Part shown: one piece after another, positions 1 to 7,744 of the stretch
Position numbering within the stretch: the first letter of the stretch is position 1
Layout of the letters: the number at the start of each line of letters is the position of its first letter
Source: Pararhodobacter oceanensis
GTDB lineage: Bacteria > Pseudomonadota > Alphaproteobacteria > Rhodobacterales > Rhodobacteraceae
NCBI RefSeq assembly: GCF_003076755.1
Contig: NZ_QDKM01000003.1
Coordinates: 186,001-250,000 of the forward strand
Length of the DNA stretch: 64,000 nt
Reading direction: 5' to 3'
Made by a program: the position numbers and the translations under genes
The notes under the pieces: generated by a model
Told to the model about the DNA's origin: nothing
Databases searched by the model: none
The model's input: only the letters and a program-made list of their open reading frames with translations

Positions 1-110
1 ACCCAGTCGGAACGGGCGCGCTCGATGAATTTGAGGTAGTTCGCGTGGTAGACGATGCCGCCCATATCGGTGTCTTCGTAATAGACGGTGACGGGGAAAT
101 GATGGGTCAT
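1..110 (-). CDS. ybgC: YbgC-type acyl-CoA thioesterase, N-terminal part (runs off the left edge)
   Basis: The first 36 residues are readable on the minus strand, beginning [18 protein letters not shown] and continuing [18 protein letters not shown]. This is the highly conserved N-terminus of the hotdog-fold thioesterase that accompanies the tol-pal genes, including the Asp of the YEDTD motif that acts in the active site of the family. The start ATG is at 108-110. The rest of the gene, and presumably tolQRAB-pal, lie outside the window. The family hydrolyses short acyl-CoA or acyl-ACP esters in the cytoplasm and is linked genetically to the Tol-Pal envelope complex. The identification rests on this short segment only, but the match is strong. 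Confidence 0.85.
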
Positions 111-699
111 AAGGCGCCTTCGGGTTGGGATGCGGCGGCAGGTTAGGGGGAAGTGATTGGGCTGGCAATCGGGGTGGCGGACGCGCAGGGACGCGCCTGA
201 CCCTGGGTGGGCGATCCGGCCTTGCCACGATGCGGTGTGCTTGGAAGCATTGGCGTCGTTCGGGCGGTGAAGGGCATCGCCGATGCGCCCTCCCATGGGG
301 AGGGTCGGGCGCGGCCCGTGGGTGCCACGGGCCTGAGGGGTGGGTTGGCAGCGCGAAGGGACGCGCCGGACTCTGGGTGGGCGCCGCTGCCGTTGCCGCG
401 ATGCGGGGCGTTTGGAAGCATAGATGCCGGATGCGCGGTGACGGACGTCGCCAAGGCGCCCTCCCGGGGGGGAGGGTCGGGCGCGGCCCGTGGGTGGGCC
501 GGGTAAGAGGGCTGCAACGAGGGGCTGCGCATTACTGTGGTCGGTGGGGGTCGCGCGCCAGGGGGGTGGAATGTCGCGGGTGGGGGTATATCTGAGGGGC
601 ACTGCAAGGAATTGTGACGGCGGGTTCCGCCGCTGCCATCGTCGCGGCTGGGCGGATTTGCTAGGCGGCGACAAGATAAAGTAACAAAGGGAGGTCGCG
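111..699. repeat. Gene-free region with two family 1 repeat copies (188-336 and 358-503)
   Basis: This 589-bp stretch holds no convincing gene. Two direct copies of the dispersed family 1 element lie at 188-336 and 358-503. Each starts near GGGACGCGCC and carries the hairpin CCCTCCC-loop-GGGAGGG, then a second hairpin. In the first copy the second hairpin is a perfect 9-bp stem, GGCCCGTGG-GTG-CCACGGGCC, at 313-333. Open frames crossing this region reflect high GC and show no family resemblance. A Shine-Dalgarno for the next gene lies at the right edge. Confidence 0.85.
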
Positions 700-1344
700 A
701 TGACCCCGATCAGCGTTGATATTGTCTCGGATGTGGTCTGCCCCTGGTGCGCCATCGGATATCTACAGTTGGAAAAGGCCTCGAAAGCCAGCGGCATTCC
801 GATCGAGGTGCATTGGCATCCGTTTGAATTGAACCCCGATATGGCGCCCGAGGGCGAGAACCTTGGCGAGCATCTGGCGCGCAAATACGGCAGTTCGGCG
901 GCGGATTCGGTGCAGACCCGCGAGCGGCTGGCCGGGTTTGGCGCGGGGCTGGGGTTCGCATTCAATTACTCCGACCAAAGCCGCATGGTGAACACCTTCA
1001 AGGCGCATCAATTGATGGATTGGGCGGCGGCGCAGGGCAAGAAACATGAGCTGAAGCTGGCGCTCCTCAGTGCCTATTTCGAGCAGCAACTGGATGTCTC
1101 GGATATCGAGGTGCTGGAGGAAAAGGCCGGCGAGGTCGGGCTGGAGAATGCGGCGGCGCGGGCGGTGCTGGAAAGCGGCGAGCGGGCGGAATCGGTGCGC
1201 GAAAACCAGCAATTCTGGACCAGCCGCGGCATTCAGGGGGTGCCGGCGATGGTTTTTGAACGGCAGCATCTGGTGACCGGCGCGCAGGGGGAGGAGAATT
1301 ACGCGAATATCCTCCAGCAGCTGGTTGATATGCGGGCGGCCTGA
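700..1344 (+). CDS. DsbA family oxidoreductase, FrnE-like
   Basis: This 214-residue protein has a thioredoxin-fold DsbA/FrnE architecture with the redox motif CPWC (Cys14 and Cys17) directly after the first beta strand. It has no signal peptide, so it should act in the cytoplasm. FrnE-type proteins are thiol-disulfide oxidoreductases, some implicated in oxidative stress tolerance, and the name 2-hydroxychromene-2-carboxylate isomerase-like is sometimes used for relatives. The C-terminal part ends with the usual [10 protein letters not shown] segment containing the cis-Pro loop (VP) and a final helix. The start is supported by GGGAGG seven bases upstream. The gene stands alone between repeat DNA and the reverse transcriptase locus. 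The substrate cannot be inferred. Confidence 0.88.
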
Positions 1345-1655
1345 GGGGGCCGTCCCGCGCGTGGGACAGGGTGCGGGACGAGTGATATCAAGGGGTTGGC
1401 TTGTTGGATTAGGGGTTTGTTAAGGGTTTTTGGGTGTTGGAGAGAGCCGGAGGTGTGGCGATACTGTCGGCCCAGAACGGACCTAGGTTAGGTGAACCAA
1501 GGCAGCAAAGCGACGGCACCATATACCGGACAATCAGGCAAAACCCAATTAGGGTGAAAAGCGTGGCAACATCGACTTTCTAAAGCTGTTATTATTTGTC
1601 ATTGTTCGGAAAGGATCGAAAAGAAGATCAAACCGCATAGAGAGTGTATTGAAAA
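1345..1655. other. Gene-free leader between the FrnE-like gene and the reverse transcriptase; possible non-coding RNA
   Basis: No coding sequence is evident. A GC-rich inverted repeat, CGTCCCGC at 1351-1358 and GCGGGACG at 1373-1380, follows the FrnE-like gene and may be part of its terminator. From about 1480 the base composition shifts to the AT-richer style of the reverse transcriptase gene. The shifted part contains an 8-bp palindrome ACCTAGGT (1481-1488) and small hairpins such as ACCC-AATTA-GGGT near 1543-1555. Several defence reverse transcriptase types are transcribed with an upstream structured RNA. Whether one is present here is inference only. Confidence 0.45.
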
Positions 1656-3206
1656 GTGCCCGGATTAGACAAAAAAGTGATTGATGATATCGACTGGGCC
1701 AAAGCTGTCCAGAATATCATTGTCGATAATCGTTCAGATTTCATACTCGCTCCGCACTTTGACATCATCTTTCGCGAAAAGAGCGAAGAGTTGAAGCAAC
1801 AACTCTCCTCGGCGCTCGGCGCGGGCGTTTATGAGCCTCAGCTTCCGATCCAAATGAGCGTACCCAAGCAAGGCATCCTTTCCCGCCCAGGAAGCATCTT
1901 GCTTCCTCAAGACCGGCTTCTGTACCAGGGACTTGTCGAAGATATACTCCCTCAATTGGAAGCTCAAATGGACAGGGGTAGAACGTTCAGCCACGTACCA
2001 TCAGGCGAAGATCAGCGCCTCTTCGCACCATCTTTCGATGCTTGGAATGCATTTCAACAAAGAGTCGAACAAATTTGTGGAGAACGCCCCTTCATTCTTC
2101 AATGCGATGTCGCAAATTTCTTTGAGACCCTTCCTCAACATCCACTGATCAACGCTTTGGAAGGAAGCGGGTGCAGAGCCGAGTCAGTTCGACTGTTGGA
2201 AAAAACTCTCACAAGTTTCAAACAAAGTGTTTCCCAAGGTATTATTCAAGGAGTTTTCCCATCAGATGTACTCGGCAATTTTTACTTGACGGACATCGAC
2301 GGACTATGCGCGCTGAAAGGCTTGCCGTCTGCACGCTACGTTGATGACATCTATATCGGCTTCGAAACCGAGCTTGAGGTCAAAATATTTCTCAATACAC
2401 TGATTGAGAAGTTAAGAAAAGTTGGTCTCAATCTCAATCCAACAAAAACGAAAATCGTTGAATCGCGCACACTCCTTTTCGAGCAAAAAGAAATTGATAC
2501 ATTGTTTGACACAGCAAGAGCAGAGATAGCGGACGCGAAGGATTTGGTTGAACAAGGCGGCTATGGATTTCAAGGCGACTGGATAAATTCAGACGAACTA
2601 GAGGTGGCGATGAACGACGGCTTGGACGATGAGCTAATAGCTGTCCGTGCACTCCTAGATTATCAAGCCGAGACCCCAGACCTTCAAGAAAAAATTGATC
2701 GTTTCTGCTTGCCATATTTGCGCTCAGTTGGAGATGAATATGGAATTGAAAGGGCTTTCTCTGGGCTTGCCGAACGCCCCCATCTTACAAGGCACTACTT
2801 TTCTTATCTAAATCACTTCGCGAAAAAACATGTAGAGGTAAGAGAACGAATAGAGAGACTGATACGCGCAAACGGATTCCATTTAGACTACCAACGGATG
2901 TACTATCTGGCTGGAGTAATGTCTTGCGAAACCGTCGAAAACTCTACAGTCCAGCATGCTCTAAATTGGCTTCAGGATGGTCGTATTGGGGACCCCACAC
3001 GAGCGATAGCGGCAATATTTGTTGCCAAATTCGGACGGGTGCAAGACAAGAGAAGTGTTCGGGAAATGTATGACAACACTTCGCCTTATATCAAAGCCGC
3101 CATACTGTATTCAGGACAATTTTTTGTTGGGGCGGATAAGTCCGCAATGAAGAAAGCGTGGCGCGGCCATTCTGAAATCAACTCTCTCATTGCCTCTTCG
3201 ATATAG
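1656..3206 (+). CDS. Reverse transcriptase of the Abi/DRT (unknown group) defence type
   Basis: This 516-residue protein has clear reverse transcriptase motifs. An N-terminal SVPKQG...SRPG region lies at about 68-79. Motif A is FILQCDVANFFETL with Asp151. Motif B is GIIQG...PSDVLGNFYL at about 195-211, and motif C is RYVDD with Asp230 and Asp231. A motif D-like GLNLNPTKTK follows at about 257-266. There is no group II intron maturase domain. Residues from about 280 to 516 look like an all-helical repeat domain, as in AbiK, Abi-P2 and related antiphage enzymes, and the length is close to Abi-P2. The start is GTG, since an in-frame TGA lies two codons upstream, with TAGAGAG as a weak ribosome site at 1638-1644. 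Base composition is visibly AT-richer than all neighbours, which points to horizontal transfer. Subtype and activity are unproven. Confidence 0.88.
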   Translation: MPGLDKKVIDDIDWAKAVQNIIVDNRSDFILAPHFDIIFREKSEELKQQLSSALGAGVYEPQLPIQMSVPKQGILSRPGSILLPQDRLLYQGLVEDILPQLEAQMDRGRTFSHVPSGEDQRLFAPSFDAWNAFQQRVEQICGERPFILQCDVANFFETLPQHPLINALEGSGCRAESVRLLEKTLTSFKQSVSQGIIQGVFPSDVLGNFYLTDIDGLCALKGLPSARYVDDIYIGFETELEVKIFLNTLIEKLRKVGLNLNPTKTKIVESRTLLFEQKEIDTLFDTARAEIADAKDLVEQGGYGFQGDWINSDELEVAMNDGLDDELIAVRALLDYQAETPDLQEKIDRFCLPYLRSVGDEYGIERAFSGLAERPHLTRHYFSYLNHFAKKHVEVRERIERLIRANGFHLDYQRMYYLAGVMSCETVENSTVQHALNWLQDGRIGDPTRAIAAIFVAKFGRVQDKRSVREMYDNTSPYIKAAILYSGQFFVGADKSAMKKAWRGHSEINSLIASSI

Positions 3207-3294
3207 CTGCACTCTTCGGGCATATCTAATTGTTTCGAATGGAAACATCTCATCAGGTGACTAAGCGTTAGCTCTCTCTTGGCGAACTCCCCCC

Positions 3295-3930
3295 TCACAC
3301 CAACCGCGCAAACAACCTCAACGCGTGGCTCGCGTCCCGTGCCACCGGTGGCAGCACGCGGTCGTAGCCTGCCGCGATCAGGGCGGCGATGTCGGGGTGC
3401 AACACGGCGGTGTCGCCGGCGCGGACCAGGGGCGCGCGCTCAGCAAAGGCGGTGTCGGACCATAGGAGGATCACCTGCACCGCCTGCATCAGCGCGATAT
3501 CGGCGGCGGGCAGCGCGGACATCTGCGCGTCCATCCGCACAAAGACAAAGGCCGCTTTGATCGCCCCGTCCTCGTCAAAGCGGAAGGCGCGGTATTGGCT
3601 GGCATTCCCCTCTTTGAGCCGCGCGACGGTGGCGGCGAGGCCCTCGACCAGACGGTCAAGATCGCGGACATCCAGCAGCTCGTCCCAGTCGCGAAAGAAG
3701 AACACCATCAGGTTGACGCCCAGCTCGGGGTCATGCTCGGCCATCTGGTGGCCCGCCAGCAGCACCACCGCCTCGATCGCGCCCTTGACCGTGGCCAGTG
3801 TCGCATCGTCGGTGCCAAAGACAATCGGCACAATCGGGCGGCCCCAGCGGGCAAACAGAAAGCTGCCGTCAGCGCGGGTGAACAGGGACTGGATGGCGTC
3901 GGGCGTCAGGTCGGTTGTGGGCGTGGTCAT
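3295..3930 (-). CDS. Conserved protein of unknown function
   Basis: This 211-residue soluble protein has no signal peptide or membrane segment and no motif I recognise. Codon use and GC are typical of the host, unlike the adjacent reverse transcriptase. The N-terminal half has a compact alpha/beta character (FLFARWGRPIVPIVFG, then NLMVFFFRDWDELL). The middle contains YRAFRFDEDGAIKAAFVFVRMD, and the C-terminal half is Ala-rich and helical. It lies on the minus strand 10 bp downstream of the MATE exporter gene, so the two may be cotranscribed together with the two thioesterases further upstream. I think it is a real gene on length, composition and context, but I give it no function. Confidence 0.7.
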   Translation of the reverse strand: MTTPTTDLTPDAIQSLFTRADGSFLFARWGRPIVPIVFGTDDATLATVKGAIEAVVLLAGHQMAEHDPELGVNLMVFFFRDWDELLDVRDLDRLVEGLAATVARLKEGNASQYRAFRFDEDGAIKAAFVFVRMDAQMSALPAADIALMQAVQVILLWSDTAFAERAPLVRAGDTAVLHPDIAALIAAGYDRVLPPVARDASHALRLFARLV

Positions 3931-6882: not shown

Positions 6883-7744
6883 GCGGATGCCGCGCTGGGG
6901 GGCGGGGTGGCATTCAAGCGCGACAGAGCGCAGCGCCTGACCGCGGGGCTTCATGGCACCACAATAAGCGCAACAGAGCGTATCGCCAGACCGCATGGCA
7001 CCTCAATAAGCGCAACACAGCGTATCGCCAGACCGCATGGCACCTCAATAAGCGCAACAGAGCGCATCGCCAGACCGCGGGGTGGCGAGCCCTACCGCAG
7101 AACAGCGAGCTTTATGGTGGCAAAATCCGCATAACATCCAAGCGGCGCGCATACATCAACCGGATCGCCAGCCCGAGGGGCGGTCCCCCCTCTCGGTGAT
7201 TTTGAGAAAATCACCTGCCGGGTCGACGGGACGATGCGCGGCGGCTAACGCCTTGATTCCGCGCAGGGGCGGCAGACCAACGAAGCGTAACGCTTGGCCG
7301 CAGAACCTCATGGCACCACATCAAGCGCAACACAGCGCAGCGGCAGACCGCGGGGTGGCGAACCCTACCGCAGAACAGCGCGGTTTATGGTGGCAAAATC
7401 CGAGCACAGATCGAGCAACGCGCATACGGCATCCAGATCGCCAGCCCGGGGGGCGGTCTGGCGATGCGCGGCGGCTTCGCCTTGATTCCGCGCGGGGCGG
7501 CAGACCAACGGGGCGTAACGCTAGACCGCAGAGCCTCGTGGCAGCATATTATGCAAAACACAGCGCGGGGCCCCCGCTTGCGACGCAACCCTCCCTGCGG
7601 GTTCAAGACCTGCTCTGTCGCGCCTGCCTTTGCCCGTTTGTGACGCAACGTCGAGCTTACGTTAACGTAAAGCACTCTTCATTTTCTATTCATACGCGTT
7701 ACATAAAGCTAAGCGAACCGACTGCTGTGCTGTGCGAGGTAAGA
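6883..7744 (+). repeat. Gene-free region with a 42-bp tandem repeat and two family 2 repeat copies
   Basis: This 862-bp gap between the two MerR genes is almost entirely repetitive. A 42-bp unit beginning ATGGCACCTCAATAAGCGCA is repeated in tandem with starts at 6953, 6995 and 7037, and a degenerate unit precedes it from about 6911. Two copies of the family 2 element follow at about 7066-7264 and 7340-7500. The first copy carries the extra hairpin GGTGATTTT-GAG-AAAATCACC at 7195-7215. The second has the plain right end GCGGTCTGGCGA. The remaining bases to 7744 hold the palindrome before the second MerR gene. Confidence 0.85.
7657..7670. promoter_or_regulatory. Perfect 14-bp palindrome TTACGTTAACGTAA, candidate MerR/LiuR-type operator
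   Basis: TTACGTTAACGTAA reads the same on both strands and lies 74 bp before the start of the second MerR gene. It matches the style of palindromes bound by LiuR-type MerR repressors that control acyl-CoA dehydrogenase and thiolase operons. A related, less symmetric copy stands before the first MerR gene. It could control this gene and, by read-through, the following beta-oxidation genes. Confidence 0.6.

Follow-up and report, generated by a model that had tools for sequence, protein, structure and literature searches.

A UG20 reverse transcriptase gene in the variable ybgC slot of Pararhodobacter oceanensis is probably a single-gene, protein-primed defence polymerase

The reverse transcriptase (RT) encoded in a 64,000-nucleotide stretch of Pararhodobacter oceanensis DNA (contig NZ_QDKM01000003.1, positions 186,001 to 250,000; hereafter the window) is a full-length member of the UG20 group. 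To judge by its kinship and predicted shape, this enzyme is probably an antiphage polymerase that needs no template for DNA synthesis. The fuller reading that we prefer, at a probability of roughly 0.7, is that the gene is a horizontally acquired, single-gene system on the Class 1 side of the UG/Abi RTs and would serve phage defence through a DNA polymerase that is primed by protein and independent of a template. The features on which the argument draws are collected in Table 1.

Assignment to UG20 was clear at the level of the whole protein. The window RT matched the PADLOC profile RT_UG20 with 681.5 bits (E = 2e-205) over profile positions 1–511 of 511, and the next profiles were UG21 (215.7 bits), Drt8 (171 bits) and UG22 (164.8 bits). 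We aligned eight of nine UG20 proteins; the ninth, from locus L038, is absent from both the alignment and the tree described below, its record having a broken frame. SARYVDD and an N-terminal SDFI-APH were invariant across the eight, and the catalytic aspartates that a first, sequence-only reading of the window had called intact (Asp151, Asp230 and Asp231, the latter two in RYVDD) are intact and shared by all of them. That reading had also taken motif B, GIIQG, as the possible mark of an uncharacterised clade. We rejected GIIQG as a private oddity of the window RT, since GI[IL]QG is found in every aligned UG20 protein. The clade to which it belongs is already named in PADLOC, and apparently it has had no experimental study: a literature search of open-licence full texts (for UG20, and for UG21, UG22, UG23 and DRT8) returned none on UG20.

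The reading frame of the window RT contains no internal stops. Its GTG start is kept in a 92% identical protein from Pseudosulfitobacter koreensis (locus L002), where the upstream leader differs. The two coding sequences differ at 217 bases, distributed as 38, 17 and 162 over codon positions 1, 2 and 3, which corresponds to a dN/dS of 0.057 (0.059 in the RT half and 0.055 in the C-terminal half). Because this ratio is so low, and about equal in both halves, we conclude that both genes are under strong purifying selection. Pfam yielded a single family above cut-off, RVT_1 (54.6 bits), and no maturase domain, as had been claimed; eight NCBIfam families matched, none of them above cut-off. In the 4.08-Mb genome of the organism the window RT was the sole RVT_1 match at E ≤ 0.001.

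The composition of the gene is unlike that of its neighbours, again in line with the initial description. Its GC content is 0.464 (GC3 0.456), compared with 0.61–0.67 (GC3 0.77–0.85) in the three neighbouring genes measured and 0.640 in the whole window. When the window was scanned with 1,249 sliding tiles of 1,551 bp in 50-bp steps (mean GC 0.639, sd 0.034), seven tiles were as AT-rich as the RT gene, and all seven overlapped it. Among the nine UG20 genes, four (those of the window, L002, L032 and L033) are more AT-rich than their surroundings and the other five are not.

To place UG20 among RTs, we used a tree of 47 sequences over 343 columns. Its rows were 24 of 40 fetched regions, five and then three further loci, and the UG20 and Drt8 rows, with a broken Drt2 excluded; group II, DGR, five of the seven retron and one of the Drt1 labels were given by score or by motif by eye, and PADLOC supplied the remaining labels (DRT, Abi and Cas1). 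All eight UG20 rows formed one clade (support 100/100) inside a group (95/92) that also held seven Drt8, one Drt4, one Drt6 and one Abi-P2. Two Drt1 rows and a UG5-nitrilase RT adjoined this group (92/94). The seven group II, seven retron and three DGR rows and the Drt9 row lay outside it, so that the window RT did not cluster inside the group II intron or retron RTs, the outcome that the sequence-only reading had named as refuting it. Class 2 is sampled by one confirmed row (Drt9) and one RT pairing with it, both on long branches, and further long end branches lead to UG5 (2.75), Abi-P2, one retron, Drt6 and a Cas1-RT; because of these branches and the single confirmed Class 2 row, the finer order of the tree is insecure. 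Among the UG/Abi RTs, UG20 looks to fall with Class 1, the Abi-like enzymes, with the placement of Drt8 in Class 1 resting on this tree. The original UG paper reportedly filed UG20 in Class 1 as well. Class 1 is described in PMC13174585 as the UG class with an alphaRep domain and template-independent synthesis.

We next considered the predicted structure. AlphaFold, run on the window RT, L002 and four Drt8 relatives, gave a model with a mean pLDDT of 57.6 and a pTM of 0.56 (a two-sequence model of the window RT had a pLDDT of 34). The RT domain was the better half; the C-terminal half was modelled as helices throughout, with low to medium confidence, and pLDDT fell below 50 at residues 279–392 and 488–516. 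In a Foldseek search of the PDB (best 50 of 908), DRT4, DRT6 and UG15 came out on top, ranks 5 and 6 went to a G2L4 and a group II RT, and AbiK, Abi-P2 and AbiA came after these, amid more group II RTs. Among the same best 50 of 908, the alignments with DRT4, DRT6, UG15, AbiK, Abi-P2 and AbiA spanned 468–549 columns, gaps included, and those with group II RTs and DRT9 spanned 271–301. The Class 1 enzymes matched this weak model with query TM scores of 0.33–0.46 and rmsd values of 12.9–15.8 Å, whereas the group II and G2L4 RTs, whose alignments are confined to the RT domain, fitted better, with an rmsd of about 4–7 Å. Such Class 1 scores, for a predicted model, mean a common layout with poor superposition. 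The AbiK/Abi-P2/DRT-like layout proposed in the sequence-only reading agrees with these near full-length alignments, although confidence in the C-terminal half of the model is low.

The RT gene occupies a slot between ybgC and a gene for a conserved 211-aa protein, which is followed by a MATE gene. The proposal that it had been inserted among housekeeping genes was right; the upstream neighbour, a DsbA-like gene, is itself accessory: its protein found matches of 30–35% or none in 13 other genomes. From left to right, the slot in the window holds two copies of a dispersed repeat, the DsbA-like gene, another dispersed repeat and the RT gene. Among 12 congeners, with L014 and L015 left out, we examined the slot in ten loci, nine of which had both borders. 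The distance between the borders, taken between tblastn match ends, was 23–69 nt in four of the nine, where the slot is empty, and 0.6–1.4 kb in the other five, where the fillings were a RES–Xre pair, found in two genomes, along with a MarR-type gene, a glyoxalase-like gene and one ORF of no assigned family. In one of the two RES–Xre genomes (L006) the RES half was scanned with Pfam and the Xre half was named by its likeness to the other (L005). Because these fillings differ in kind and in length, the ybgC slot is a recurrent acquisition site in the genus. It offers a small, readable site for following the gain and loss of single genes, and of toxin-antitoxin pairs, among congeners.

Table 1. 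Positions of the RT gene, its motifs and its surroundings (window coordinates unless a locus is named)
Feature	Positions	Strand	Remarks
ybgC 5' end (tol-pal thioesterase), left border	1-110	-	TIGR02799, 155.3 bits, cut-off 141.35
Variable slot, ybgC to 211-aa gene	111-3294	.	spans ~3.2 kb in the window and 23-69 nt in four congeners
DsbA-family oxidoreductase, other slot cargo	700-1344	+	PF01323
5' flank common with L002 (~72% identity)	1544-1655	+	probable leader/promoter; no significant RNA fold
UG20 reverse transcriptase gene	1656-3206	+	GTG start, 516 aa; RT_UG20 match residues 1-516
Catalytic Asp151, motif A	2106-2108	+	invariant 8/8
Motif B GIIQG, residues 195-199	2238-2252	+	GI[IL]QG in 8/8 aligned UG20 proteins
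RYVDD with catalytic Asp230/Asp231	2334-2348	+	invariant 8/8
Tyr303, linker between palm and helical domain, candidate priming residue	2562-2564	+	invariant; AbiA precedent
C-terminal helical (alphaRep-like) domain	2583-3203	+	predicted, boundary approximate; helices of low to medium pLDDT
Conserved 211-aa gene, right border	3295-3930	-	no Pfam match
CHAT-domain gene, Lamassu pair, Cre/Xer-like recombinase	L040 372-1562, 2944-6789, 9590-13428; L034 153-1376		

The repeats were looked at in their own right. A near-palindrome, GTCCCGCGCGTGGGAC, together with about 50 conserved nucleotides at 1352–1438, is a dispersed intergenic element; the 16 bases of the near-palindrome have 14 exact copies in the genome and none in a reversed-pattern control. 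Several copies of the element end, by eye, in TTAA-N7-TTA(A/G), which we take to recall a CtrA box. The idea that this element marks an insertion end was unsupported, as the cassette common with L002 begins about 100 nt further on. The other repeat, GC-rich and about 160 nt long, lies at 180–345 and 352–514 and has conserved ends that could form a long stem. More copies are found at 16.5–17.4, 31.5–32.0, 39.8–40.1 and 42.0–42.5 kb of the window, and the genome holds 78 matches, itself included, often clustered; Rfam gave no match on it within 100–1600. Elsewhere in the window, at about 6907–7700, translated ORFs contain a repeated ARPHGTSISATQRI-like peptide, which suggests a further short DNA repeat flanked by two MerR-like regulator genes (labelled by eye).

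UG20 genes are rare. Within the genus, one of 18 genomes carries UG20, namely the organism's own, and in a draw from the family three of 394 do, its own included. Three of 385 genomes in a class draw matched the UG20 profile (its own, one other UG20 and one Drt8), as did four of 398 in a phylum draw (its own, one other UG20 and two Drt8); the Drt8 genomes (G628, G965 and G967) were excluded from the UG20 count. Three further UG20 genes sit on plasmids, two of which are typed as conjugative. Four plasmid records covered 80% of the query, of which three were examined and the fourth was H4 (24% identity). Two peptide-pattern scans found no UG20 relative in viral contigs: none of six stretches in the first scan encoded one, and the relatives encoded in 13 of 80 stretches in the second, with ORFs of 380–440 aa, are presumably DGR RTs. 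None of seven phage records matching the window RT covered 80% of it, the matches being partial. Phage carriage of UG20, which we had considered, is thus unsupported by either the viral contigs or the phage records.

Defence or toxin-antitoxin genes lie in the same stretch as four of the nine UG20 genes. On a Sinorhizobium medicae plasmid (L040), a Lamassu LmuA/LmuB pair is found about 1 kb downstream of the UG20 RT, and a same-strand gene for a 1281-aa CHAT-domain protein precedes the RT by about 180 bp. In L034 there are RES and Xre genes, Xre scoring 24.4 bits against a Pfam cut-off of 24.5, and the record annotations list DarT/macro, SIR2/ATPase and NACHT genes near the UG20 gene of L038, and VapC, PIN and RES near that of L039. 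At the other five loci (the window, L002, L031, L032 and L033) inspection and partial scans revealed no recognised defence neighbour; L031 is a 5.4-kb contig.

Comparison of near pairs set narrow limits on the unit that these genes share. DNA homology between the window and L002, whose RT lies at a site unrelated to that of the window, extends over 1544–3211, that is, from 112 nt before to 5 nt after the RT gene. Between L034 and L040 it runs from about 12 nt before to 1 nt after the longest ORF, and between L031 and L038 it is confined to coding sequence and ends inside the gene. An all-against-all comparison of 564 flank ORFs from the nine loci found no adjacent gene common to them. What sharing there was lay more than 5 kb from the RT: L034 and L040 have a gene, 79% alike and weakly resembling Cre/Xer tyrosine recombinases, about 8.4 and 5.4 kb upstream, respectively, and L034 and L038 each hold a member of one family, annotated RHE_PE00001 in L038. 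Because homology in the near pairs ends within 112 nt of the gene and no adjacent gene is common, UG20 looks like a one-gene unit. The sequence-only reading had proposed a single-gene or gene-plus-RNA unit, and no conserved flanking RNA was seen. It had also stated that there is no integrase; this holds for the slot in the window, whereas L034 and L040 have their Cre/Xer-like recombinase 5–8 kb off, so that at least two UG20 genes appear to be cargo of an island that carries a recombinase.

DRT2 and DRT9 use an ncRNA (PMC12632851, PMC13213688), and it is conceivable, though quite unlikely, that UG20 is an RNA-templated, Class 2-like system with its template RNA in or just before the gene, the 112-nt leader being the ncRNA. 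The leader is common to the window and L002 (about 72% identity), and RNAalifold on the two leaders gave 35 pairs with three changed on both sides, a count from two sequences that carries no significance figure and is too little to weigh. Stretches wider than the leader folded slightly better than shuffles (z = -1.13 for 1506–1655, 25 of 200 shuffles being as good; z = -1.51 for 1345–1655, which holds the dispersed repeat, 9 of 100 being as good). However, the leader itself folded no better than its shuffles (z = 0.28 and 0.80), its identity is below the 84.8% of the whole block common to the two loci, the other two near pairs (L034/L040 and L031/L038) have no such leader, and UG20 does not group with Drt9 in the 47-RT tree. 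Rfam gave no match over the RT gene and its flanks, nor at gathering scores across the window. As a control we searched for an ncRNA-bearing DRT pair, which returned one Drt9 plasmid match (34%) and one broken Drt2. We regard it as very unlikely that the RT instead needs a protein partner, either the DsbA-like gene or differing local partners such as the CHAT-domain gene of L040. The DsbA-like gene and the RT do share a slot and a strand, as the CHAT-domain gene is close to its RT on the same strand, but tblastn of the DsbA-like protein found nothing in the other eight UG20 loci, L002 included, the GC content of its gene differs sharply from that of the RT, and the only sharings among flank ORFs are the distant ones.

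The polymerase could also have been kept for a role outside defence, for example in DNA repair or tolerance. Purifying selection on the RT, and the five loci that have no recognised defence neighbour, are compatible with such a role, yet the very patchy distribution of UG20 in the genus and family, its conjugative plasmid carriers, neighbours such as Lamassu and its kinship to known Abi/DRT enzymes all speak against it, and we hold it to be highly improbable. An origin of the window RT from a group II intron or retron is rejected by the tests made here. Its best NCBIfam match was group_II_RT_mat, at 75.6 bits far below the cut-off of 300, and the modelled RT domain superposes well on group II RTs; the tree, the whole-length UG20 match, the absence of a maturase domain and the absence of an intron RNA match in Rfam over the gene and its flanks nevertheless leave this origin next to no probability. 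As to retrons, the window RT falls outside their clade, and an msr/msd RNA sought via Rfam gave no match.

Our preferred reading thus remains a protein-primed, template-independent polymerase for defence, and we propose how it might work. The palm and fingers and the helical repeat domain of the UG20 RT would oligomerise, and the enzyme would polymerise dNTPs into single-stranded DNA, no nucleic acid serving as template. Synthesis would be primed by a hydroxyl of the UG20 protein itself, most likely that of Tyr303 (compare Tyr298/Tyr303 of AbiA). A phage factor would trigger the RT or stabilise its product, and the DNA, or a protein–DNA adduct, would then halt phage growth by abortive infection.

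Precedents for priming of this kind exist in two places of the protein. AbiK, Abi-P2 and AbiA are described as protein-primed, template-independent polymerases (PMC9508834, PMC11077055); in AbiK and Abi-P2 the priming residue is an N-terminal tyrosine (PMC9508834), and the priming tyrosines of AbiA, 298 and 303, lie in the loop that joins its RT and helical domains (PMC11077055). Seven tyrosines are invariant in the eight aligned UG20 proteins (90, 228, 233, 303, 381, 384 and 478), and none is conserved in residues 20–70, where AbiK has Tyr44. Tyr303 lies 73–74 residues past the first Asp of YVDD in all eight, and likewise in the C-terminal piece from L038. It sits in a conserved YGF...W island, four of eight residues being invariant at 302–309, within a linker that is more variable on either side (4 of 21 residues invariant before the island and 2 of 36 after it). 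In five of seven Drt8 rows, too, a tyrosine follows the first YVDD Asp at a distance of +70 to +74. We give linker priming in UG20 about one chance in three.

DRT3b is described as protein-primed and template-independent with a product of defined sequence (PMC13174585). A UG20 enzyme primed from Tyr303 might likewise make a product whose sequence the protein dictates, with the UG20-specific GI[IL]QG and the acidic linker shaping nucleotide choice, which we consider unlikely; if true, the DNA product would be a new one, and Class 1 would have, after AbiA, a second enzyme primed from its linker. The gene should allow a clean test of how general linker priming is in Class 1, because it is compact and apparently self-sufficient and comes with a 92% identical relative and a mutable residue. 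To our knowledge, those Class 1 UG/Abi RTs that have been studied synthesise DNA independently of any nucleic-acid template, and for many groups neither product nor trigger has been described. The window gene is a good test case and not a new kind of system.

Several known systems come close to the window RT. It resembles the UG20 group (RT_UG20, PDLC03758) in whole length, motifs and clade, and together with L002 and L031 it belongs to a sub-branch without the insert of about 14 columns that the other five aligned proteins have after residue 75. DRT8 is homologous to UG20 over almost its whole length (profile comparison over columns 9–514 of 535, window residues 9–499, E = 1.7e-25); the window RT is 18–25% identical to four Drt8 proteins, and the motif B consensus of DRT8 is G[LI]PxG in contrast to GI[IL]QG. 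In sequence, a profile of Abi-P2, Drt4 and Drt6 matched the window RT in the RT domain only. In predicted structure, AbiK, Abi-P2, DRT4 and DRT6 appear to share with it a single-gene layout and a near full-length alignment, although AbiK and Abi-P2 have an N-terminal priming tyrosine and UG20 has no conserved one. AbiA of Lactococcus is a dimer with a HEPN domain, for which Pfam gave no match in the window RT, but it too joins an RT to a helical domain, and its linker priming tyrosines lie where UG20 has the invariant Tyr303.
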